54,749 nucleotides of DNA, from the NCBI GenBank assembly GCA_002726205.1, contig PBSL01000029.1, positions 1 to 54,749 on the forward strand. The letters run 5' to 3'. Positions 8,032 through 23,252 of the stretch are shown here, piece after piece; the stretch's first letter is position 1, and the number at the start of each line of letters is the position of its first letter. Source of the DNA: Planctomycetaceae bacterium (lineage in GTDB: Bacteria > Planctomycetota > Planctomycetia > Planctomycetales > Planctomycetaceae). The position numbers and the translations under genes were made by a program. A model generated the notes under the pieces. That model was not told where the DNA came from. It was given only the letters and a program-made list of their open reading frames with translations, and did not search any database.

Positions 8032-9381
8032 ATGTCGTTGATTGCCGACGACCAGCGTTACGTCTGGCATCCGTTCACGCCGATGCAGGCCTACGCTCTC
8101 GAGTCGCCGCCGGTGATCGTCGGGGGCGAGGGGTTCGAGTTGATCGACGAGACGGGGGCGAGATACCTCGACGGGGTCTCGTCACTGTGGTGCAACGTTC
8201 ACGGTCACCGTGTTCCCGAGATCGACCAGGCCATCCGCGACCAGCTCGATCGCATCGCCCACTCGACACTGCTGGGGCTGGGCGGGGGACCCTCGATCGA
8301 GTTGGCTCGGCGGTTGGTCGAGATCACGCCGGCGGGACTGGAACACGTGTTTTTTTCCGACAGCGGGGCGACCGCCGTCGAGGGGGCTTTGAAGGTCGCC
8401 TGGCAGTACCAGCGGCAGCGAGATGGCAGTGACGGGTCGCGTGATCTGTTCGTCGGGCTGACCGGCGGGTATCACGGTGACACGATCGGTGCGGTCAGTC
8501 TCGGCAACATCGACCTGTTCCACGCCGTCTACGGACCGTTGCTGTTTCAGACCATGACGGTGCCCTCACCGGTGGCGTTTCACCGTCCCGCGGGGACAAC
8601 GGCCGAGGAGTGGCTGTTGTTCTGCGAGGAAGAACTGGAACGGGTGTTGCTCGCGAATCACGAGCGGATTGCGGCGGTCGTGATCGAACCGCTTGTCCAG
8701 GGGGCCGCCGGCATCCTGGTGCACCCACCCGGCTATCTGAAACGACTCCGGGAGTTGACCGGGGAGCTGGGCCTGTTGCTGATCGCCGACGAGGTGGCTG
8801 TCGGGTTTGGTCGAACCGGGACGATGTTCGCCTGTGAGCAGGAAGAGGTGAAACCGGATCTGCTGTGCCTGGCAAAGGGGCTCAGCGGCGGATATCTGCC
8901 ACTGGCGGCAACACTGGCAACCGGGGAAATCTACGAAGCCTTCCTGGGCGAGCCGCACGAAGGACGTACCTTCTTTCACGGCCATACCTACACGGGCAAC
9001 GCGCTGGGTTGCGCCGCGGCATTGGCGTCGTTGGACCTGTTGGAAACCCGTGACGTCCTGGGCAATGTCGGCAGGATTGCCGGTGTGTTGTCGGATCACC
9101 TGGCCGCGTTGGCTGACCATCCGCACGTCGGCGAGATCCGTCACAAGGGGCTGATGGTCGGCATCGAGCTGGTGGCCGATCGTGTCGGCAACCAGGCGTT
9201 TCCCGTCGAACGCCGAACGGGCCACCTGGTGACGCTGGCTGCCCGCCGCCGTGGTGTGGTACTTCGTCCCCTGGGCGATGTTGTGGTCCTGATGCCGGCA
9301 CCGGCGATGCCGGCGGCCTCGGTCGAGACTCTCTGCCAGGTGACGATCGATGCGATCGAGGAGGCGACACGGGGCGGCTAG
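8032..9381 (+). CDS. bioA: Adenosylmethionine-8-amino-7-oxononanoate aminotransferase (BioA)
   Basis: 449 residues, normal for BioA. PLP enzyme that transaminates KAPA to DAPA in biotin synthesis using S-adenosylmethionine. N-terminal '[10 protein letters not shown]' is characteristic of BioA. The PLP aspartate is Asp253 in '[13 protein letters not shown]', and the Schiff-base lysine is Lys282 in 'LAKGLSGG'. No other bio gene is present, so the biotin pathway is dispersed in this genome. The stop codon overlaps that of the convergent membrane-protein gene by 4 nt (CTAG). A different class III aminotransferase is possible but less likely given the N-terminal motif. Confidence 0.93.
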
Positions 9382-10433
9382 TTTTCCGTGTCGGGTTTGA
9401 TGTCGGTTTCGGCGTCGGTTTCGGCGTCAGTTTCGGCGTCAGTTTCGGCTGCCGCGGCCTCGGTCATCTCCCGAAAGATCGCCGTGGGATCGGTCGTCTC
9501 GACGCCGTCGAGAGCTTCGATTGCACCGGCGGGTGCGGCGGTTGCGCGTTTCAGTCCGCTGGCGGCGAAGCGACGGTCTCCCTGCCGGGCTCGCCAGGTC
9601 AGCAGTCCGGTGACGGCGATCGCGACGGCGACAAGTCCCAGCAATGAAATTGTCCACGTCATTCGCTCGGCGGCCGTCGGTGGCAATGTCGTGGTCGTGG
9701 GTCGGGTGTTGATCCGTCGATCGATTCTCTGGGCCAGCAGCAGCGGTGCCGCGTGGACTCGCAGGTCTTTTTCGATGATGTACTGGTCGCGTTTGAAGAA
9801 ATAACCGACCACGCGGACAGCGATGGGCGGATCGATTGATTCGGCAAACGGCAGTCCCACGGGTCGTGTGGTCAGGCGGACCCGGTAGGGGGTCGTACCA
9901 CTGTCACCGGTAAAGATCAGGGCCTCGAACAACTCGGTGATGTCCTCGTCGTTTTTTCGGACAGGAAACTGGTGCAGTCGTCTCAGGTCTCCGGCGACTG
10001 CGATCAGCTGGCCCCGGAAGTGATCTGGCTGTTTCTGCAGCACGGCAAAGGCCGCATCACCGGCGATGGCATCGAGATCCTGTTGTGGCAGGTCCCGTGC
10101 CCGGGCCAGGATCCGGTGATAGGGACCGATTTCCTCACTGCGGAGACCGACCGAATCGTCCTGGATGTTCTCGAGTTCCTCGGGAGGGATTGCCACCAGC
10201 GCGGCGATTTCCTGCCGGGGCCGCGACGTGGTGCGAACCGCGGGTTGTCCGCCGACATTCGCTGCCGGGGCGGCCGCTCGCGGCCGCCCGGTCAACCAGT
10301 ACCAGGAACTCGGGCGGCGGGCGAACTGAATGGCGACCAGGACCAGGGCCAGCAGTCCGATCATCGCCAGCATCCGCAGCTGGAAACGGCGGCCAAGAAA
10401 GTCGGGTGGTGTGGTGTCGTTATCGAAACGCAT
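9378..10433 (-). CDS. Hypothetical membrane protein with acidic repeat tail
   Basis: About 351 residues, no recognised family. It has an N-terminal membrane segment (about residues 20-40), a soluble region with an OB-fold-like look ('[13 protein letters not shown] ... [14 protein letters not shown]'), a second membrane segment near residue 270, and a C-terminal tail made of four Ala-Glu-Thr-Asp repeats. The ATG at 10433 is used; a GTG one codon earlier is possible. It shares its stop region with bioA and diverges from the TPR/ExbB/ExbD cluster. The predicted promoter lies so close to the start codon that the mRNA may be leaderless. Confidence 0.75.
9402..9449. repeat. Four tandem 12-bp repeats (Ala-Glu-Thr-Asp coding)
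   Basis: The plus strand reads gtcggtttcggc twice, then gtcagtttcggc twice, all in register. On the coding (minus) strand each unit encodes Ala-Glu-Thr-Asp at the C-terminus of the membrane protein. In-frame repeats of this kind can gain or lose units by slippage without a frameshift. Confidence 0.9.
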
Positions 10434-10441
10434 CACCGGCC

Positions 10442-10606: not shown

Positions 10607-13600
10607 ATGCGAATCTGCCTGGTTCACCTGCTCCTGCTGGCCCTGTTGAGCGGTACTGCCAAGGCCCAGTCGGGACCGGCAAAGCGGCAGATGGACTTTC
10701 TGGAAGCACTGCGGCAGCGGGGCTACTTCGAGTACGCGCAACTTTATCTCGACGATCTCAAGAAGCGGCCGGACGTGCCAGCCGAGGTCAAGGCGGTGGT
10801 CGCCTATCAACGGGCGATCACCTACCTGGAGGCGGGGCGGTCGGCATCCGGCCCGATCGAACAGTCGGCGAACTACGACAAGGCGATCGGGTTCCTTGAT
10901 CAGTTCGTCAAGGCGAACCCGAAACATGAACTGGCAGCCGCGGCCAACTCCCAACGTGGGCGGATCCTGCTGGGCAAAGCTCGCGTCGAAATCTGGCAGG
11001 CGCAATCGCCGGCCAACGCGGCCAAGCAGACCCAGTTCCAGGCCGCCGGGCGGAAGCTGGTTGTCGCGGCGCGGGGGATTTTTCAGGCGGCACACGCCCA
11101 GTACGAGAAAGCCTGGAAGGCTTTTCCGACCTTCATCGACAAGGTGAAACAGAAGGGGCGCTTCGAGCAGCGCAAGCGGGCTGAGGCCGTGTACATGCGG
11201 GCCCAGTACGACCTGGCATTGTGTAGCTACGAGGAGGCGCAAACGTGGAACCGCGGCAGTAACGAGTACAAGAAACTGCTGACGAAGTCTTCGACGGAAT
11301 TCGAGGCGATCCACACCCGCTACCGCAGCCAGGTCCTCGGCCTCTACGCCCGGATGTGGCAGGGCAAGTCGTTCGAGGAACAGGACGACATCAACAAGGC
11401 GATGGGCATCTACAAGGAGCTGCTCGATCACCCGGGCGGCTCGCAGACAATGCGGCGGATCCAGGACAAGGTGTTGCTCTTCAAGCTGATCTGCCTGAAC
11501 CACGAGAAGAAGCAGGACCACGTGCTGGTGATCGCCGAGTCAACCCAGTGGCTGGGCAAGCACACCACCCGTCAACGCCGCACTCCCGACGCACTGGGAG
11601 TGCTCTGGCAACAGGTGCGGGCCCGCGAGGCCCTGGCCGCGACCCGGACGGTGACCAAGCAGGTCCGTGACCAGCAACTCACGCAGGCGATGAACAGCTG
11701 TCGTTTCATCCAGCGGTGGCCGAGCCGGTACAAGGATGTTGCCTTGTTCAAGCTCCGCGAGTTGCAGGTCAAGCTCAGAGGCTCGGCCGTCGAACCTCAG
11801 GATTTCGACACCGCCCTGGGAATTGCCCAGGACCTCTTCAAGAAGATCAAGGATCACAATGAACTTGTCGCCGCAGCCCGGCGCGACAAGAAGCCGGCCG
11901 CCGAATTGAAGAAGCTGGCCGTAGCCCGGGACGAGCACCTGGCCAGCACGCGGGACATGCTGCAGACGGCCCTGTCACTGGTCGAACGAGACACGGCCCG
12001 TGAGGATCTGAACCGGGCCCGGTTTTACCTGGCTTACGTCTACTACCAGCGACGGCAGAACTACGAGGCCGCTGTGCTGGGTGATTTCCTCTCGCGTCAC
12101 GCCGGCCCCAAGGACACCGCGATGGCGCTGGATGCGGCCGCGATCGCGATGGCGTCTCACGTTCGGGGTTACAACGATTCGCCAACCGACGAACTCAAAC
12201 AGCAGGACTTGCGGCTGATCGAGGCCACCGCAGCACGGATCATTTCGAACTGGCCCGAGAGTGACCGGGCCCAGGACGTGCGATTGCAGCTAGCCCAGGT
12301 CTACGAGGGCAAACGGCCACTCGAGGCCGCCAGGAACTACGCCCAGGTGACCGAGAAGGCCCGTGCGTACGCGGAGGCACAGACGCGGGCGGGGCAGCAA
12401 TTCCTGCGAGCCTGGCTGGATGCCGCCAACGCTCCCCAGGCCTCACGACCCTCGCAGCAGGACCTCGACTCCTGGGTCGCCTCGGCCGAGCGGCATCTCA
12501 AGGCCGGGATCGCCCGGACCGAGCAGTCCACCCCGGCCACCGTCAAGGCCTCGGAACTGCTGATCGCAGCGAAGGTTTCCCTGGCCCAGATCCTCAACAA
12601 TAACGGGAAGTACCAGGAGTCGATTGATCTGCTGGTCAAGGATCCGCACTCTGTCATCACCGCGGTCAGTGTTGACGATGAAACGAAACGACCCGAGAAG
12701 GGAGTCCAGCGACGCGAGTTTGCCAGCCTGGCGGCGCAACTGCTGTTGCGGGCCTGGATCGGCCTGCGGAAACTCGACCAGGCCCAATCGGCAATGGAAC
12801 TGCTCGAGAAGATTGCCGGGGCAGCCAAGGGGGAGGCCGTGACGGAGTTGTACCGGCAACTTGGCGACGAGCTCAAGCAGGAACTCTCCCGGCTTTCCGC
12901 GGCCGGAAACCAGCAGCGAGTCAACGAGGTGCAGGCGGCCTTCGAGGAATTCCTGGATCGATTGCGACAACGCAGTGACCAGACGTTCAACAGCCTGATC
13001 TGGGTCGCCGAAACCTACAGCGGGCTCGGGCAGGCAGCGGTGCAGGATCAGGCGAAGGCGAACAGGTACTTCGGTCACGCGGCCGGAAGTTACCAGTCGA
13101 TCATCGATCGTACCGAAGCCAGTCCGATGTTTCTGCGGGATCCGAAGATGATGCCCGGTGTCAAGTTGAGACTGGCTGCCTGCTATCGTCACCAGGGGCA
13201 ATTCGAGGAAGCTCGCAAGATCATTGTTGATCTCGTGAAAGCGTCGCCGATGGCCCTGGATGTCCAGTTTGAGGCGGCGTCGATGTACCAGGCGTGGGCC
13301 GGGTCCGGAAAGGCAGAGAACTTCGACAAGGCGGTCATCGGAGTGAAAGCTGAGGGGGTACTCGGCTGGAGTCAGATTGCGTTGTTGCTGCAACGGCTGA
13401 TCGACAGCGGGTCCAAGGACGCCGAGCGGTACCGTGATCGTCGTTGGGAGGCTCGTTACAACCAGTTGCAGTGTCGACTCGAGCATGCCGCCGCGGTTTC
13501 CTCGGAGAGCGAGAACCAGTTGAAGCGTGCCCGGTCGGAGATCCAGAGCATGATGATGGTGACGGCGATCACCGATTCTCGCTGGACGGCTCGCTACGAC

Positions 13601-14059
13601 GCCGTCTACCGCAAGATCCTCGAGGGGCTCAATGAACCGGTGATCACGCTGGCCGAGTACCGGGGAAAGTACAAGCCGAAGCTGACTCCTGCCGTTGCGC
13701 CCAATAAGCTGGTACCCAGTGTCGCGGCGTCAACCGGGCCGGCGGCTGTTTCTGGAGCCGCCGCCGCTGTCAGCGGCGGAGGACCCGGACTCCTCGGGCT
13801 TGTCTTTGCCGGAGTGCTGCTGCTGGCCGGCGGAGTCGGGGTGGTGTTCATGCTCAAGAGCGGGTCGCGCAGTCGGCGATCGCGGCGTCGTTTCGTTCCT
13901 GATGCGGCGCCCGTGCCACGGCCGGCCGGCAGCGAGACTCGAACTCGTCGATCAGCGGCCGGGAAGAAAAAACCGTCCGGTGGGCAGCCATCCCAAAAGT
14001 CACAGGCGGCCGACTCGGCCTCGAGGTCGCGACGTCGTAAACCCGGCCCCAAGTCCTGA
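10607..14059 (+). CDS. Large secreted TPR-repeat protein with C-terminal membrane anchor
   Basis: About 1150 residues, no specific family name. A signal peptide covers residues 1-20 ('LLLLALLSGTAKA' then Gln), so I start at 10607; the frame is open further upstream but that part is not protein-like. The body is helical with many tetratricopeptide-like repeats rich in Ala, Gln, Arg and Lys. Near the end there is a Gly/Ala hinge, a membrane segment ('LLGLVFAGVLLLAGGVGVVFML') and a strongly basic tail. This predicts a periplasmic scaffold anchored by its C-terminus. It starts a five-gene run with a second TPR protein, ExbB and two ExbD proteins. Its N-terminus ('FLEALRQRGYFEYAQLYL') resembles that of the secreted TPR protein at 43594-46107. 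Confidence 0.85.
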   Translation: MRICLVHLLLLALLSGTAKAQSGPAKRQMDFLEALRQRGYFEYAQLYLDDLKKRPDVPAEVKAVVAYQRAITYLEAGRSASGPIEQSANYDKAIGFLDQFVKANPKHELAAAANSQRGRILLGKARVEIWQAQSPANAAKQTQFQAAGRKLVVAARGIFQAAHAQYEKAWKAFPTFIDKVKQKGRFEQRKRAEAVYMRAQYDLALCSYEEAQTWNRGSNEYKKLLTKSSTEFEAIHTRYRSQVLGLYARMWQGKSFEEQDDINKAMGIYKELLDHPGGSQTMRRIQDKVLLFKLICLNHEKKQDHVLVIAESTQWLGKHTTRQRRTPDALGVLWQQVRAREALAATRTVTKQVRDQQLTQAMNSCRFIQRWPSRYKDVALFKLRELQVKLRGSAVEPQDFDTALGIAQDLFKKIKDHNELVAAARRDKKPAAELKKLAVARDEHLASTRDMLQTALSLVERDTAREDLNRARFYLAYVYYQRRQNYEAAVLGDFLSRHAGPKDTAMALDAAAIAMASHVRGYNDSPTDELKQQDLRLIEATAARIISNWPESDRAQDVRLQLAQVYEGKRPLEAARNYAQVTEKARAYAEAQTRAGQQFLRAWLDAANAPQASRPSQQDLDSWVASAERHLKAGIARTEQSTPATVKASELLIAAKVSLAQILNNNGKYQESIDLLVKDPHSVITAVSVDDETKRPEKGVQRREFASLAAQLLLRAWIGLRKLDQAQSAMELLEKIAGAAKGEAVTELYRQLGDELKQELSRLSAAGNQQRVNEVQAAFEEFLDRLRQRSDQTFNSLIWVAETYSGLGQAAVQDQAKANRYFGHAAGSYQSIIDRTEASPMFLRDPKMMPGVKLRLAACYRHQGQFEEARKIIVDLVKASPMALDVQFEAASMYQAWAGSGKAENFDKAVIGVKAEGVLGWSQIALLLQRLIDSGSKDAERYRDRRWEARYNQLQCRLEHAAAVSSESENQLKRARSEIQSMMMVTAITDSRWTARYDAVYRKILEGLNEPVITLAEYRGKYKPKLTPAVAPNKLVPSVAASTGPAAVSGAAAAVSGGGPGLLGLVFAGVLLLAGGVGVVFMLKSGSRSRRSRRRFVPDAAPVPRPAGSETRTRRSAAGKKKPSGGQPSQKSQAADSASRSRRRKPGPKS

Positions 14060-14087
14060 GATTTGTTGAACCTGGAGTTCCTCAACC

Positions 14088-15164
14088 ATGACATTTCGTC
14101 TTCAACGCCTGTCGCCGGTGCTGCTGTCACTGGTCGTGTCGCTGCTCTGGCTGCAACCGCTCCAGGCGGTCGACCAGGTCTTTCGCAAGAGTTCCAAGAC
14201 CCCGATCCGCGGCAAAGTCACATCGGTCACCAGGACCGGGGTCAGCATCAAGCCGCAGGTCGGCGCGGACGTGGCGGTGGCGGCCAACGACATCCAGGAG
14301 ATTCGCTGGAATGGGGAACCTGTGAAGCTGATCACCGCCCGAAGCAGCGACCGTGCCGGGCGGTTCGAGCGGGCTCTGACGATCTACACCGAAGTGCAAT
14401 CCGACCCCAAGGCCGGTGCAGCCAACATCAAGCTGGATCTCCAGTTCCTGATTGCCCGGACCACTGCCAGGCAGGCCCTGGCTGGTATCGGAAAACTGGA
14501 AGACGCACAGGGGAAGTTGAAGGACTTCCTGACGGCCGGGACAAGCAGCTTCCGGTATTTCGATGCGGTCAACCTGCTGGGGCAGGTGCAGTTGGGAGCC
14601 GGTGAATTTGATGCTGCCAAGGCCCAGTTCGCCGGCCTGGCCAAGGCGCCCTGGACGGATTATCAACTGGCCGGGCAGAGCGCCCTGGCACGCGTGTTGT
14701 TGGCCCAGGACAATGTTGACGGAGCTCTGGCCGCCTTCCAGCAAGTGATCAACAAGAGCCAGAAGGCGCAGTCACCGGCCGAAGTCAACCAACGCTACCA
14801 GGCCGTGCTCGGCAAGTCGGCCTGCCTGATCCGCAAGAAGGGGCAGGCTTCCTTCGAGGCCGCCTTGAAGGATCTCGCCGTTGTACTCAGCGGTGCTGCC
14901 AACGAGAACGCCGAGGTACTTGCCGAGGGATACCTGCGACAAGGGGACTGTCTGCGGCTGCTCGGACGGCACAAGGAAGCGGTTCTGGCCTACCTGCACG
15001 TTGATCTGCTGTTTGCCGGCGAACCGGCCCAGCATGCCGAGGCGTTGTTTCGCCTCGGGCCGTTGTGGTCGGCGGTGGGGCAGCCGGAACGGGCGGCGAG
15101 GGCGCGGGAACGGTTGCGAAGCGACTATCCTCAGAGCAGTTGGACGAAGAAGCTGGGGAGCTGA
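14088..15164 (+). CDS. Secreted TPR protein
   Basis: 358 residues. Signal peptide at residues ~1-27 ('LLSLVVSLLWLQPLQA'). Residues ~30-75 are a small beta-rich region ('IRGKVTSVTRTGVSIKP ... NDIQEIRWNGEP'). The rest is tetratricopeptide-like repeats ('AKAQFAGLAKAPWTDYQLAGQSALARVLLAQDNVDGAL' region, ending 'LGPLWSAVGQPERAARARERL'). It starts 28 nt after the large TPR protein and precedes exbB, so the two TPR proteins and the proton channel are probably co-expressed. Likely periplasmic, where TPRs would mediate protein contacts. Function unknown. Confidence 0.85.
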   Translation: MTFRLQRLSPVLLSLVVSLLWLQPLQAVDQVFRKSSKTPIRGKVTSVTRTGVSIKPQVGADVAVAANDIQEIRWNGEPVKLITARSSDRAGRFERALTIYTEVQSDPKAGAANIKLDLQFLIARTTARQALAGIGKLEDAQGKLKDFLTAGTSSFRYFDAVNLLGQVQLGAGEFDAAKAQFAGLAKAPWTDYQLAGQSALARVLLAQDNVDGALAAFQQVINKSQKAQSPAEVNQRYQAVLGKSACLIRKKGQASFEAALKDLAVVLSGAANENAEVLAEGYLRQGDCLRLLGRHKEAVLAYLHVDLLFAGEPAQHAEALFRLGPLWSAVGQPERAARARERLRSDYPQSSWTKKLGS

Positions 15165-15245
15165 GACCTGGCAGCGAGCCTCCTGTCCGGATGACTCGCC
15201 GACTCGAATACAACCTTGATACTGACTGAAACACTGGAGAACACC

Positions 15246-16181
15246 ATGTCTGACCGCCTGTCTGCACGCCGCACGGGTGCTTGGTTCCTGTCCGGCCTGT
15301 GCCTGGTGGCCTTGTTGTCCCTGGGATCCGAGACCGCGCTGGCCTGGCAGGAGAAAAAAGCCGAACCCGCCGCCGCCGAACCAGCCGCTGCCGAACCGGC
15401 CGCCGCCGAACCGGCCGCTGTCGAACCGGCCGCTGACGCGGCTGTGGGAGAGACGGATCCGGCCGCACCGGCGGAAGACGCCGCTGGGGGAGGTGGAGCT
15501 TCGGAAAGCTATCTGGTCCGATTCGTGAAAGCCCTGGGGTGGTTCTTCGGGCCGATCTTTTTGGTGATTTCGTTCACCCTGGTTGCCCTGATCATGATGA
15601 ACGTGTTGCAGATCCGCCGCGACATCCTGCTGCCGCCGGGGTTTGTTGATGACTTCGAGCAGCAACTGGCCGGCAAGGACTACCAGGGCGCCTACGAAAT
15701 CGCCCGCACTGACGATTCGATGGTCGCCCGCGTGCTTACCGCCGGCCTCACGAAACTCAACCGCGGCTATGCCGAGGCGGTCGAGGGTATGCAGGAGGTA
15801 GGCGAGGACGAGAACATGGCGCTTGAACACCGGCTCAGCTATCTCGCGCTGATCGGTTCGATTGCCCCGATGATCGGGCTGGCCGGTACCGTGACCGGCA
15901 TGATTCTCAGTTTCGACAAGATCGCCAGTTCGGCGACCCAGCCCGAGCCGGCGGAGTTGGCCGAGGGAATTGCGACGGCGTTGTGGACGACCCTGGTCGG
16001 ACTGGGGATCGCGATCCCGGCGATGATTTCCTACAGCATTCTCCGCAACCGGGTGGCCCGTCTGGTGCTCGAAGTCGGCGGGGTCAGCGAGAGCCTGATG
16101 GGACGTTTCCAGAGTCTCGGTCGCAGCAAGCCCGCCTCCGGGGGGGCCCCGACCGCCGCACCCGCGGCACCACAGCAGTAA
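15246..16181 (+). CDS. exbB: MotA/TolQ/ExbB proton channel family protein
   Basis: 311 residues. Forms the inner-membrane proton channel with ExbD/TolR and powers an envelope process. The core has a membrane helix near residue 100 ('FGPIFLVISFTLVALIMM'), a cytoplasmic loop and the family hairpin 'LALIGSIAPMIGLAGTVTGMI ... GIATALWTTLVGLGIAIPA'. The N-terminus is extended: a signal peptide-like segment and a periplasmic linker with five Glu-Pro-Ala-Ala-x repeats. The start at 15246 has GGAG 6 nt upstream. Two ExbD genes follow directly. No TonB, TolA or receptor gene is nearby, so the energised partner is probably one of the TPR proteins or encoded elsewhere. Confidence 0.92.
   Translation: MSDRLSARRTGAWFLSGLCLVALLSLGSETALAWQEKKAEPAAAEPAAAEPAAAEPAAVEPAADAAVGETDPAAPAEDAAGGGGASESYLVRFVKALGWFFGPIFLVISFTLVALIMMNVLQIRRDILLPPGFVDDFEQQLAGKDYQGAYEIARTDDSMVARVLTAGLTKLNRGYAEAVEGMQEVGEDENMALEHRLSYLALIGSIAPMIGLAGTVTGMILSFDKIASSATQPEPAELAEGIATALWTTLVGLGIAIPAMISYSILRNRVARLVLEVGGVSESLMGRFQSLGRSKPASGGAPTAAPAAPQQ
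15363..15437 (+). repeat. Five 15-bp repeats (Glu-Pro-Ala-Ala-x) in exbB
   Basis: Five consecutive 15-nt units of the form gaaccNgccgcNgNc encode Glu-Pro-Ala-Ala-Ala/Val/Asp. They form a flexible Pro/Ala linker between the signal segment and the first channel helix. Confidence 0.85.
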
Positions 16182-16255
16182 GTTGACAATCCCGGGAAAC
16201 CGCCTGCCGCGAGGTGTTCCCGGGAAGGGTACGAGGATCTGACGGAGATTTGCGG

Positions 16256-16858
16256 ATGCGGATCAAGAAAACCGAGCCGGTACTGGCCGAAGTTGACATG
16301 ACCCCCATGATCGACATCGTGTTCCAGTTGATCGCCTTCTTCATGGTGATTTCCAATTTCGAGCAGACGCAGGCCGACGAGCGGGTGCGGTTGCCCGAGG
16401 ATGTGCTGGCGTTGCCGCCGAAGGTGAAACCGGCCCACGAACTGGTGCTGAATGTCGGGTTCCTGCGGGACGAAAAGCACAACCTGCCCGAGCAGGGGCC
16501 GGTGGTGTTTCATGCCGGCCGGTTTTGCTGGATCACTCAGCAGGACAGTCCGGCCAGCGTACGGATTTTCAATGGCCGGGCGAACGCGATCCAGACGATC
16601 GAGACGGTGGATTTCAGTTACCGGCTCAACCAGGAAAAACAGCTGTTCTATGATCGCGGTGTCGCCGTTGCCGAGAGTGTCACGGTGGTGATCCGCGCTG
16701 ATTCCCGGGTGCCCACTGGCCTGATCCAGAAACTCATCCAGTTGGCCCAGGCCGATTTCACCGGCAGCGATGGCTCGAGCCAGCCGGGGTTTGCCAAGTT
16801 CGCGTTGAAGGCCGAGCAGACCGCCGAGAGCCGGGCGTTCAAGTCACGGGGTTCCTGA
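16256..16858 (+). CDS. exbD: ExbD/TolR family protein, first copy
   Basis: 200 residues. Inner-membrane partner of ExbB with one N-terminal helix and a periplasmic domain. 'VDMTPMIDIVFQLIAFFMV' contains the conserved Asp of 'PMID' that carries protons. The periplasmic part is longer than in typical ExbD (about 140 residues), with an insert between the helix and the final 'VTVVIRADSRVPTGLIQKLI' segment. The start at 16256 has GGAG 8 nt upstream; an in-frame ATG at 16214 would add a non-membrane leader. The second exbD begins 3 nt after this stop, suggesting a mixed ExbD dimer. Confidence 0.9.
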   Translation: MRIKKTEPVLAEVDMTPMIDIVFQLIAFFMVISNFEQTQADERVRLPEDVLALPPKVKPAHELVLNVGFLRDEKHNLPEQGPVVFHAGRFCWITQQDSPASVRIFNGRANAIQTIETVDFSYRLNQEKQLFYDRGVAVAESVTVVIRADSRVPTGLIQKLIQLAQADFTGSDGSSQPGFAKFALKAEQTAESRAFKSRGS

Positions 16859-16861
16859 GCC

Positions 16862-17380
16862 ATGAAAATCAGAAACCAGGGTGGAGTGGAGAAGATCGAG
16901 CCACAGATGGCTCCGATGATCGACGTCGTGTTCCTGCTGTTGATCTTCTTCATGCTGACGCTGAAGATCGTTCAGCCCGAGGGCGACTTCAACATCAACA
17001 TGCCGGCGGTGGCCCAGTCGCAGACCGAAACGCCGAAGTTGTTGCCTGATTTCAAGGTGCGATTGGTAGCCGATGGTGCGACCGGAGCGTTGCTCGAGGT
17101 TCGCTACGGCCAGCGAAGTCTTGGCAATGGTCCGCCTGCCTTCCAACTGCTGCAGCAGATGATTCGCGAGAACATCGCCGGGAGTCCGTATGCTGATGAG
17201 GTCGAGGTCGAGATTGACGCGGACTTCGACCTGAATTACGAGCACGTGATCAGCGCGGTCAGCGCTTGCACCGGACAGGTTCAGCAGGGGTCGGACGGCC
17301 AACCGGAGGTCGTGCGGTTTGTCGAGAAGATCAAGTTCGCGCCGCCTCGCCAAAGCACCCGTGCTGCGACGGGGGGGTGA
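16862..17380 (+). CDS. exbD: ExbD/TolR family protein, second copy
   Basis: 172 residues. Same architecture as the gene before it: a short cytoplasmic start, one helix ('MAPMIDVVFLLLIFFML') with the conserved Asp, and a periplasmic domain ending 'EVEIDADFDLNYEHVISAVSACTG'. It differs clearly in the periplasmic domain from the first copy, so the two are not a recent duplication. It is the last gene of the TPR-TPR-ExbB-ExbD-ExbD run and is convergent with the recombinase gene 27 nt away. Confidence 0.9.
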   Translation: MKIRNQGGVEKIEPQMAPMIDVVFLLLIFFMLTLKIVQPEGDFNINMPAVAQSQTETPKLLPDFKVRLVADGATGALLEVRYGQRSLGNGPPAFQLLQQMIRENIAGSPYADEVEVEIDADFDLNYEHVISAVSACTGQVQQGSDGQPEVVRFVEKIKFAPPRQSTRAATGG

Positions 17381-20718: not shown

Positions 20719-21026
20719 CCGTGGGCTGTGGCCCGTCCTGGTGTTGCACCGATCCGATCGGTCCCCGACATATTGACCGATTGTTCACGGGTTGGCCAGC
20801 CGCGGTTAAGATATGACAATTGCCTGACCTCTTCCGGTGGACTAGACTGCGCAAGCTAGGAACGACCTTGAGGGCAAGTTGCTCGTTGCCACCGGGTGGC
20901 AGCCGGTGATTCCGGCGTCGCCGGATGGGATTTGACCGCGACCCGCGGTGGATGTCGGTCGATAACAGTGCAAAGGTGTCCGATGTTTCGATCCGCTCTC
21001 TTTCCACCTTGTTGTGTGAAACTGTC
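20719..21026. other. Divergent intergenic region between uvrD and a secreted-protein gene
   Basis: 308 bases with no convincing gene. It holds one candidate plus-strand promoter (20820-20848). The plus-strand leader of about 170 nt contains short inverted repeats around 'ccggcgtcgccgg' (about 20912-20924). I could not pick a clear minus-strand promoter for uvrD. Confidence 0.5.
20820..20848 (+). promoter_or_regulatory. Candidate sigma-70 promoter for the 21027 gene
   Basis: TTGCCT (20820-20825), exactly 17-nt spacer, TAGACT (20843-20848). Four of six matches in each box. The predicted untranslated leader is about 170 nt. Confidence 0.4.
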
Positions 21027-23252
21027 ATGACCAAATTCCCTCGCGCCGTCCTTGGCCGTTCATTTCTGACCTTCGGGTTGATTTTGTCCTTCGTCGTGGT
21101 TTCAGCGGTGGCCTCGGCCCAGGACCAGGCTCCCGGAGCATCGGTCAGCGGCAAGGGGCTGCGGGGCCTGTTGGCAGAGCAGGTTCCGGTCGACCTGACC
21201 GAGGAGTCGCTCGAGTCGCTCGGTGGCAACTGGGCTCCGGTGCGGGCCAAGCTCGTGATCTCGCTGAACCAGCTCTACGAGAACGAATCGCTCGGCATCC
21301 GCGGCCAGCGGAGGGCTCTCGAGGAACTCAAGGCCCAGGCGGCGGTGATCCGTGTCGGCATCGAGGAACTCCGTAACAAGCCCATCCAGCGAAACCTGAT
21401 CACGATCCACGGTCGTCTTTCCCGTCGCATCGGCGTGGCCGAGGCGTTGCTGGATGCGGTGACGATTTCCACCAAGGCGGCACCAGCGGTGTCGGCCGCT
21501 GAGACAGCCAGGCAGAAGTTGACCGTGTCGGTCAGGAAGTTGCACGGCTACCTGAAGTCGTTTGCGACCGGCGAGACCTGGATCGACTATCTTGGTGTTG
21601 TGCGGATCAGCGAGGACCTGAAGAAGCCGACGCCGGGCAAGTCCGGACTGGCCGTGATGCGACGCGTGCAGGAGAGGTTACAGGGGAAGGACCAGATCGG
21701 TGACGCGGCCCAGACAAAGTTCCTGAAGGAACCGCAGATCGCCGCCGTGGAAGAGGCACTTGGCGCGTACCTGACCGAAGCGGGCAAGACGACGCCGACC
21801 AAGCCGCGCCCGGTGGTGCCGCTCAACGACAAGACCCGGGCGGCCCTTCGCCCCCACCTGGCCACCTTGGCAGCGGCAATCGACCGCTACGAGTTGTCGT
21901 CGTCGAAGTCCGCGGCCACACGGGTGCGGCAGGCGCTGAAATCAGTTCAGACGATTTCCCCGTCCCAGGGTGAGCAACTCGGTGAAGCCCTGCGACCGCT
22001 TTACCTCAGCTACAACCTTCGCGTGGTCGCCAGTGAGAAACTGCTGGGACGGATCATCGGCCAGACCCGGACAAAAAAGAAACCGGTTCGCGACGTGATC
22101 CTCGAGGCGCAGGTTACCGGTGATTCGACGACCAGTGCCACGGTGGGGATCGATTTGCTGAAGAGCCAACGTGGTGCCCGCTGGAACATGGTGCTCAATG
22201 GGAAGACGATCACCGACACGCGGGCCAACAAGAAGGGGGTCAACGTCTTCACGCACGGAGAACACACCTTCTCTGCCACCAAGTTGGTCGAGTTTGATGG
22301 AGACCGTTTCAGCACCAAGCCGGCGGTGGTGGATGTCGATGCCAACAACACCATTGTCGACGTGACAGCCAAGTCGGTCATCATCCGCCGGCTGGCGAAG
22401 AAGAAGGCCGCGAAACTTAATCCTCAAACCGAGCGGATTGCGGCTCAGAAAGTTGCGGCCGATGTCTCGCCGGAATTCAACGGTGAGGTTGACAAGCAGT
22501 TCAAGAAGGCCACCACTGACCTGGCCAAGCATGTCAATGGGCCGCTCAAGCAACTGGACCTGTTTCCCGCAGCACGCAGTATCACGACGACCAACGATGA
22601 ACTGCGAGTATCGACGCAGTTGATGGGGTCCGGCGAACTGGCCGGTGGACGACCGAATCCGGCGATCACTTCCGATTCGGGCCTGGTTGTGCACCTGCAT
22701 GAATCGGCAATCAACAACGCCCTGGATCGCCTGAAACTGGCTGGCCGGACGATGACCGAGGAGGATCTTAAGGTCGAGTTCGAGAAGACGCTCTCGACGT
22801 TTCTTGGCCGCGAATTCCACTTCCCCGCAGCCGATGCGCGGACCGCCGATGAGACCGGGCCGACGACACTGGTCTTTGCTGGCGAGGATCCGATCCGTGT
22901 CCGGATCGCCGACGGCAAGCTGTTCATGGTCATCCGTGCCGGTCTGAAGCAGGAGTCCGGCAAGGAAGAAATTCCGGCCCAGGTCGTGACCGTACCGTTT
23001 GGAATCGGTGTCGATGGCGACAACGTTGTCCTCTCGCGTGGATCGGTCAAGGTGTCGGCCGTGTCGCGACCCAAGAGCCGGACCAAACAGATCGTCCGCG
23101 CCGGCGTCGTTCGCAAGAAGATCACGCGGAATCTCAAGAACCGGCTGATCGAGCGGCACATGAGCGTTCCTCGCGACGGCGCCGATTCGATCCGGTTGTC
23201 GGTGACGCGGGTCGAAGCCATCAACGGCTGGTTGAGCATCGTGTTCGAGTAG
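21027..23252 (+). CDS. Large secreted protein of unknown function
   Basis: About 741 residues, family not recognised. Signal peptide 'LTFGLILSFVVVSAVASAQ' covers residues ~13-31, which fixes the start at 21027 and not at the earlier in-frame codon at 20925. The first third is helical ('QLYENESLGIRGQRRALEELKAQAAVI' region), consistent with a coiled or bundled domain. The second half is mixed alpha/beta and contains a duplicated-looking segment around 'VVHLHESAINNALDRLKLAGRTMTEEDLKVEFE'. No membrane segment after the signal and no catalytic motif. Probably periplasmic. It ends 15 nt before the convergent alcohol dehydrogenase gene. Confidence 0.8.
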   Translation: MTKFPRAVLGRSFLTFGLILSFVVVSAVASAQDQAPGASVSGKGLRGLLAEQVPVDLTEESLESLGGNWAPVRAKLVISLNQLYENESLGIRGQRRALEELKAQAAVIRVGIEELRNKPIQRNLITIHGRLSRRIGVAEALLDAVTISTKAAPAVSAAETARQKLTVSVRKLHGYLKSFATGETWIDYLGVVRISEDLKKPTPGKSGLAVMRRVQERLQGKDQIGDAAQTKFLKEPQIAAVEEALGAYLTEAGKTTPTKPRPVVPLNDKTRAALRPHLATLAAAIDRYELSSSKSAATRVRQALKSVQTISPSQGEQLGEALRPLYLSYNLRVVASEKLLGRIIGQTRTKKKPVRDVILEAQVTGDSTTSATVGIDLLKSQRGARWNMVLNGKTITDTRANKKGVNVFTHGEHTFSATKLVEFDGDRFSTKPAVVDVDANNTIVDVTAKSVIIRRLAKKKAAKLNPQTERIAAQKVAADVSPEFNGEVDKQFKKATTDLAKHVNGPLKQLDLFPAARSITTTNDELRVSTQLMGSGELAGGRPNPAITSDSGLVVHLHESAINNALDRLKLAGRTMTEEDLKVEFEKTLSTFLGREFHFPAADARTADETGPTTLVFAGEDPIRVRIADGKLFMVIRAGLKQESGKEEIPAQVVTVPFGIGVDGDNVVLSRGSVKVSAVSRPKSRTKQIVRAGVVRKKITRNLKNRLIERHMSVPRDGADSIRLSVTRVEAINGWLSIVFE

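Follow-up and report, generated by a model that had tools for sequence, protein, structure and literature searches.

What does a proton-driven ExbB/ExbD motor work on when the genes beside it encode neither TonB nor a Tol protein? The question is raised by a cluster at positions 10607-17380 of a 54,749-nucleotide contig of Planctomycetaceae bacterium (PBSL01000029.1, assembly GCA_002726205.1; the whole contig is called the window here), in which genes for two exported tetratricopeptide repeat (TPR) proteins, denoted A and B, precede one ExbB gene and two different ExbD genes. Open reading frames (ORFs) and Pfam matches agree with the initial annotation, which had placed these five genes here and had spoken of two secreted TPR proteins, one of about 1150 residues with a C-terminal anchor; they correspond to a 1150-residue A with a hydrophobic C-terminal segment and to a 358-residue B.

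10607-14059, plus strand: A, exported TPR protein of 1150 amino acids with a C-terminal membrane helix at about 1065-1083 and a basic tail (ORF; TPR_6, 2e-8)
14088-15164, plus strand: B, exported protein of 358 amino acids, a small beta domain followed by a TPR solenoid (ORF; TPR, Pfam)
15246-16181, plus strand: ExbB/TolQ/MotA-type proton channel subunit with an Ala/Pro/Glu-rich N-terminal extension (PF01618, 2e-28)
16256-16858, plus strand: ExbD1 (PF02472, 2e-11)
16862-17380, plus strand: ExbD2 (PF02472, 4e-16)

The intergenic gaps from A through B, ExbB and ExbD1 to ExbD2 measure 28, 81, 74 and 3 bases, and the short gaps and shared strand suggest that A to ExbD2 form one operon; a simple promoter and terminator scan of the cluster returned nothing decisive. 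We conclude that this is a real, conserved and uncharacterised envelope motor locus, and a search of the open-access literature turned up no paper on a planctomycete A-B-ExbB-ExbD-ExbD arrangement. The reading that we prefer, and to which we give an even chance, is an envelope motor driven by protons and equipped with TPR adaptors of its own, its transducer being encoded elsewhere or of a kind not recognised.

The gene order recurs across planctomycete families

We scored the distribution of the cluster in 59 relatives and in 73 named loci obtained from a one-motif scan for A, with A profiles built from sequences that were later scored with those same profiles. A was found in 54 of the 59 relatives (E<=0.001). 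From their 60 loci we left out eight with less than 5 kb after A and eight second copies of A (L096-L103), and one genome, G044, enters the resulting 44 twice (L091, L092). The order A-B-ExbB-ExbD1-ExbD2 was present in 28 of the 44; one other locus read A-ExbB-ExbD1-ExbD2, 13 had just A-B and two just A. In the family to which the window belongs (f1 among the relatives) the order was complete at 22 of 28 loci, and in the other families the motor was linked to A at seven loci and unlinked at nine. Among the named loci, 28 of 73 were left out for having less than 5 kb after A, and 33 of the other 45 carried the complete order. The two sets overlap, some contigs coming from the same metagenome-assembled genome, so these counts must not be added.

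Recurrence of the order in several families of the class is more than chance would produce. Record titles assign 71 of the 73 named loci to genera that we take to be planctomycetes, the other two being labelled only 'bacterium'. The expectation that the order is conserved in planctomycetes is supported by both locus counts, and its expected absence elsewhere is something that a one-motif scan cannot show. Where the order is broken, the motor may lie apart: in G022, G025, G026 and G027 the motor genes do not come after A but form a group on a different contig, which in G022 includes B. In G002 and G008, genomes of the window's family with incomplete loci, we found no window-type motor genes.

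The motor retains its putative proton-path residues and is probably distinct from Ton and Tol

Residues T215 and T249 of ExbB show no variation across 14 aligned rows and correspond in the alignment to T148 and T181 of Escherichia coli ExbB. The membrane-helix Asp of ExbD1 (17 rows) and that of ExbD2 (18 rows) are likewise invariant, and both align with D25 of E. coli ExbD. In E. coli, ExbB T148 and T181 and ExbD D25 are needed for proton use. In the ExbB tree, the A-linked rows form one 17-row clade with moderate support (85/89, below the tool's star level). No relative of the window ExbB was found in viral contigs. A second ExbD2 copy lies behind the first in L048, L058, L109, L119 and L128, so that the cluster there holds three ExbDs.

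As had been claimed for the cluster, it contains no TonB or Tol gene. The flanking proteins scanned (U, described below, a 765-residue ORF, an aminotransferase and an integrase) had no TonB or TolA domain, and Pfam gave no match for FHA or TonB_C in the five cluster genes or the four scanned neighbours. Nor does the motor appear to depend on a TonB encoded elsewhere. The window genome has seven MotA_ExbB matches, eight ExbD matches and one TonB_C match in Pfam, and its sole TonB is on contig C49 with its own ExbB, ExbD and TonB-dependent receptor. Of the 37 genomes with a window-type ExbB, defined by a best ExbB match of at least 300 bits, 27 have no match to TonB_C (PF03544), the only TonB family searched, which leaves room for a diverged TonB (e.g. 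of the PF13103 type); seven of the 27 are single-contig assemblies (G001, G004, G007, G012, G017, G032, G045). TolB_N (PF04052) had 0 matches in the window genome, with positive search controls, and the one OmpA-domain protein of this genome is unlinked (C10:26065). On the missing TolB_N we rejected identity with Tol-Pal; TolA (PF06519) was not searched for genome-wide.

Related motor clusters place a TonB-like candidate beside a TPR gene

The window genome holds a second cluster of similar build on contig C61 (L009:5858-9667), with genes for a vWA-like protein, a B-like TPR protein (B'), ExbB, ExbD and ExbD on one strand. Its first protein, of 329 residues, has a TonB-like Ser-x3-His helix; its vWA matches are weak and fall short of the cut-off (E 7e-4). 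The collinear alignment of B and B' spans 310 columns and takes in the beta domain (hhalign E 5.9e-5, probability 65%), and B' scores 30 bits against the B profile. Among the genome's other ExbBs, the C61 protein scores best on the window-type profile, with 203 bits against 140 for the next in the list. Judged by this alignment and this score, the window cluster appears to be sister to the C61 cluster, with A standing in the place of the vWA protein.

A TPR-TolQ-TolR-TolR-vWA cluster has been described from Planctomycetes-Verrucomicrobia-Chlamydiae (PVC) bacteria, where its function is unknown too (PMC12204202). The C61 cluster fits that description. The window cluster shares with it a TolQ-like gene (PF01618) and two different TolR-like genes (PF02472), but in place of a vWA or other protein with a TonB-like helix it carries the giant TPR protein A. 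The B-ExbB-ExbD-ExbD part of it seems to be paralogous to the PVC vWA cluster.

A second kind of motor cluster carries a paralogue of A. At L178:4823-12460 (contig C170 of G026) the order is ExbB-ExbD-ExbD-x-y-A', A' being a paralogue of A without the C-terminal helix; at L186:10870-15406 (contig C12 of G027) only y and A' were seen. The protein y, adjacent to A' in both, combines a squalene-cyclase-like toroid domain with a TonB-like helix, in which the Ser is replaced by Ala in L178. A TonB-like candidate thus stands next to a TPR gene in two related kinds of cluster, beside B' in C61 and beside A' in L186 and L178, which argues for a separate transducer.

A scan for TonB-like helices (ORFs of 180 residues required, Ser at -4, flanks of 2.5-9 kb only) recovered TonB (L008) and the vWA proteins in L009, L179 and L180. 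Near a window-type ExbB it found no such ORF in the scanned loci except in G022, where a vWA protein with a TonB-like helix lies 3.5 kb from the ExbB (L182). The match in L074 is a 226-residue ORF antisense to ExbB. In the window genome, four unlinked proteins have a Ser-x3-His membrane helix, with a Pfam vWA domain in three: L187 and L190 in tandem at C49:59296-63100 (C49:59296 and C49:61439), L188 on C76 (C76:33183) and L189 on C26 (C26:97360). Homologues of L187 occur in 51 of the 59 relatives. This family, the commonest of the four, does not track the cluster; it is a candidate and not a proven partner, and we rejected it as an obligate one.

The window genome has other gene sets with an ExbB as well. 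At L010:6310-12079 (C8), ExbB and two ExbDs are followed by a 1312-residue ORF with FHA and PQQ beta-propeller domains. At L011:2930-11427 (C21), a 1093-residue TPR protein is followed by ExbB, ExbD and a protein with PD40 plus squalene-cyclase-like parts, and at L012:3679-10185 (C44), a 1106-residue TPR protein is followed by ExbB and a FlgI-like protein.

A proposed proton-driven motor with TPR adaptors

AlphaFold2 modelled A with a mean predicted local distance difference test score (pLDDT) of 83.5, as a helical solenoid from about residue 24 to 1022 behind a signal-like N-terminal stretch. A hydrophobic C-terminal segment (mean Kyte-Doolittle hydropathy 2.6 over 19 residues) precedes the basic tail; pLDDT is below 50 across residues 1026-1150, so this helix is not confidently modelled. 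The model of B (mean pLDDT 93.5) has strands within residues 29-73, then TPR-type helices. Fold comparison of the two models gave generic TPR solenoids only, although families not listed there may still match; A matched LGN, among others, over 314 residues (Z 22.6). Foldseek matched a Campylobacter jejuni periplasmic scaffold at rank 17 for B and 44 for A, with poor root-mean-square deviation. Such matches carry little specific information, because a TPR solenoid resembles a wide range of unrelated chains. The TPR part of B matches CpoB (6g5s, 4.8e-11), and searches of PDB and NCBIfam found no family closer than ExbB, TolQ, ExbD and CpoB. The A genes of L069 and L155 each appear as two overlapping ORFs, through a frameshift or an assembly error.

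Established here are the parts of the cluster, their order and conservation, and independence from TonB_C proteins in 27 of 37 genomes; the stoichiometry, contacts, transducer and function of the motor are inferred. By homology, ExbB would form the ring and ExbD1 and ExbD2 the central dimer, which would be moved by proton passage at the conserved Thr and Asp sites. The periplasmic TPR solenoids of A and B may grip the ExbD periplasmic domains and a partner protein, acting as scaffold or clutch; in the window's family only, the C-terminal helix would additionally tie A to the inner membrane. The two-helix membrane protein U probably joins the complex. The part reaching the wall or outer membrane would most likely be an unlinked TonB/TolA-like protein, for which the genome offers at least the four Ser-x3-His candidates. 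The system appears to be inherited vertically within the class and looks like housekeeping equipment, not a nutrient-specific device. The conserved order, the linked ExbB clade and the invariant motor residues support a motor with TPR adaptors, as do the second motor cluster carrying A' in L178 and the grouping of the motor genes on a different contig in G022, G025, G026 and G027.

Several observations weigh against this reading. The proteins scanned yielded no transducer. The L187 family, the best-matching of the free vWA families, has no member in G045, a single-contig genome of 99% completeness that carries the cluster in full, and it occurs in f2 genomes that have no window-type ExbB. The similarity of B and B' reaches an hhalign probability of only 65%, and of the 103 loci that extend at least 2.2 kb upstream, just 10 have U next to A. 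A window-type ExbB match of 300 bits is absent from six f2 genomes and from G039, G048, G002 and G008, though A and B are present; A and B may therefore act in part without the motor, or a different motor may serve them.

Could A itself transmit the force?

The initial annotation had proposed the TPR proteins as the energised partners. In its strongest form A would be the transducer, its C-terminal helix docking on the ExbB ring and its solenoid carrying the force to the wall or outer membrane in place of TonB, TolA or the vWA protein. A does occupy the place of the vWA gene beside the B-ExbB-ExbD-ExbD core, the loci scanned for TonB-like helices offer no rival near the window-type ExbB bar that of G022, and the C-terminal helix occurs in each of the 30 f1 orthologues whose C-terminus is intact and, among the named ones, in 57 of 64. 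Outside f1, however, a C-terminal segment passes the threshold in only 1 of 17, and that one, in L092, is a TPR helix, yet seven loci of those families are motor-linked; the helix follows family and not linkage, and we rejected it as a mark of motor linkage. His is absent from the helix in 83 of 84 cases, so there is no SHLS motif, and its polarity is opposite to that of TonB and TolA. The paralogue A', moreover, is encoded beside the separate TonB-like candidate y. We therefore regard A as a possible but unlikely transducer.

Another proposal dispenses with a TonB-type transducer: the ExbD1/ExbD2 dimer would turn in a ring held fixed by A, B and U and act directly on the wall or a partner, in the manner of MotB in a flagellar stator. 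It has precedents, since the Campylobacter TPR proteins PflA and PflB hold MotA/MotB, relatives of ExbB/ExbD (PMC7990780), and AglRQS likewise has two different ExbDs (PMC3169522); the C. jejuni periplasmic scaffold also appears in the Foldseek lists of both models, at the low ranks and with the poor fit given above. Against these stand the unspecific fold matches and the TonB-like vWA protein of related clusters in the same genome, and we hold this arrangement to be improbable.

A would become a force transmitter of a new type if its thousand-residue solenoid, with its tail in the inner membrane and driven by the motor, bridged to the outer membrane for outer-membrane upkeep or for the uptake reported in Planctopirus limnophila, where carbonyl cyanide m-chlorophenylhydrazone (CCCP) abolished dextran uptake (816 cells; PMC5394234); this we consider a long shot. 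Were it true, these planctomycetes, without a TolB match and mostly without a TonB match, would use A for outer-membrane upkeep or macromolecule uptake. Uptake of green fluorescent protein (GFP) is also reported from Gemmata obscuriglobus. Family f3 may be that of Gemmata, and the lack of an A match in four of its six genomes, with weak ones in the other two, weakens the link with uptake. The least probable explanation, an ordinary Ton power unit with its TonB encoded elsewhere, can draw on the one TonB of the window genome but is largely refuted by the company that this TonB keeps and was rejected for most genomes on the absence of TonB_C.

Beyond these readings, the locus offers a set of genes with which the energetics of the planctomycete envelope can be tested. 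Envelope biology in this group is unexplained, including the uptake of large molecules that depends on the proton gradient and the crateriform contacts between membranes (PMC5394234), and a conserved motor in genomes without a detected TonB is a candidate power source for some envelope process. A term search for signs of essentiality found neither Tol, Exb and TPR nor proton channel named in the main text of a P. limnophila transposon study (PMC10632474).

Relation to described TPR-linked motors

The claim that the machine is unlike the known Ton and Tol systems was too strong, given the PVC cluster with the same core and a copy in the window genome, and the similar parts of the Myxococcus Agl-Glt system. 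The Agl-Glt core comprises AglR (ExbB) and AglQ and AglS (ExbD), together with the exported TPR proteins GltD (1191 residues) and GltE (471 residues), and forms one gene cluster outside most Deltaproteobacteria (PMC3169522). The window has the same inventory of one ExbB, two ExbDs and two exported TPR proteins, a likeness drawn from lengths and domain types (PMC3169522, Table 1). A GltG-like FHA/TonB protein, however, was not found by Pfam in the window cluster, and A has a membrane helix in f1 whereas GltD has none. In Fibrobacter succinogenes, the neighbouring locus tags FSU_2397-2403 likewise cover two TPR proteins, ExbB and two ExbDs, but unlike the window cluster they include a TonB family protein, FSU_2403 (PMC6851124).

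Tol-Pal with CpoB also combines a TolQ/TolR-type motor with a TPR protein, but with the YbgF/CpoB model B reaches 33 bits where 90 would be required, and the window genome shows no TolB_N. In the PflA/PflB scaffold, two periplasmic TPR proteins, one of them (PflB) anchored by a single membrane helix (PMC7990780), serve an ExbBD-type motor, much as proposed for the window cluster; the latter has no flagellar rotor partners, and the likeness is one of plan only.

A probable sixth component and a neighbouring gene

The five genes of the cluster are as first annotated, and its coordinates omit a likely sixth member, U, which is divergent from A and 170 bases away.

9378-10436, minus strand: U, protein of 352 amino acids whose periplasmic part lies between two predicted membrane helices; probably a sixth member (homologues in related motor clusters)

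The hydrophobic segments of U lie near residues 18-40 and 260-281. Homologues are found inside four related motor clusters (L178, L224, L180 and L179; BLASTP 3e-19 for that of L178), which ties U to the motor family and makes it probably a component of the system. Window positions 20955-23249 hold a 765-residue exported ORF that has no clear Pfam match and keeps its position in L104, L105 and L113.

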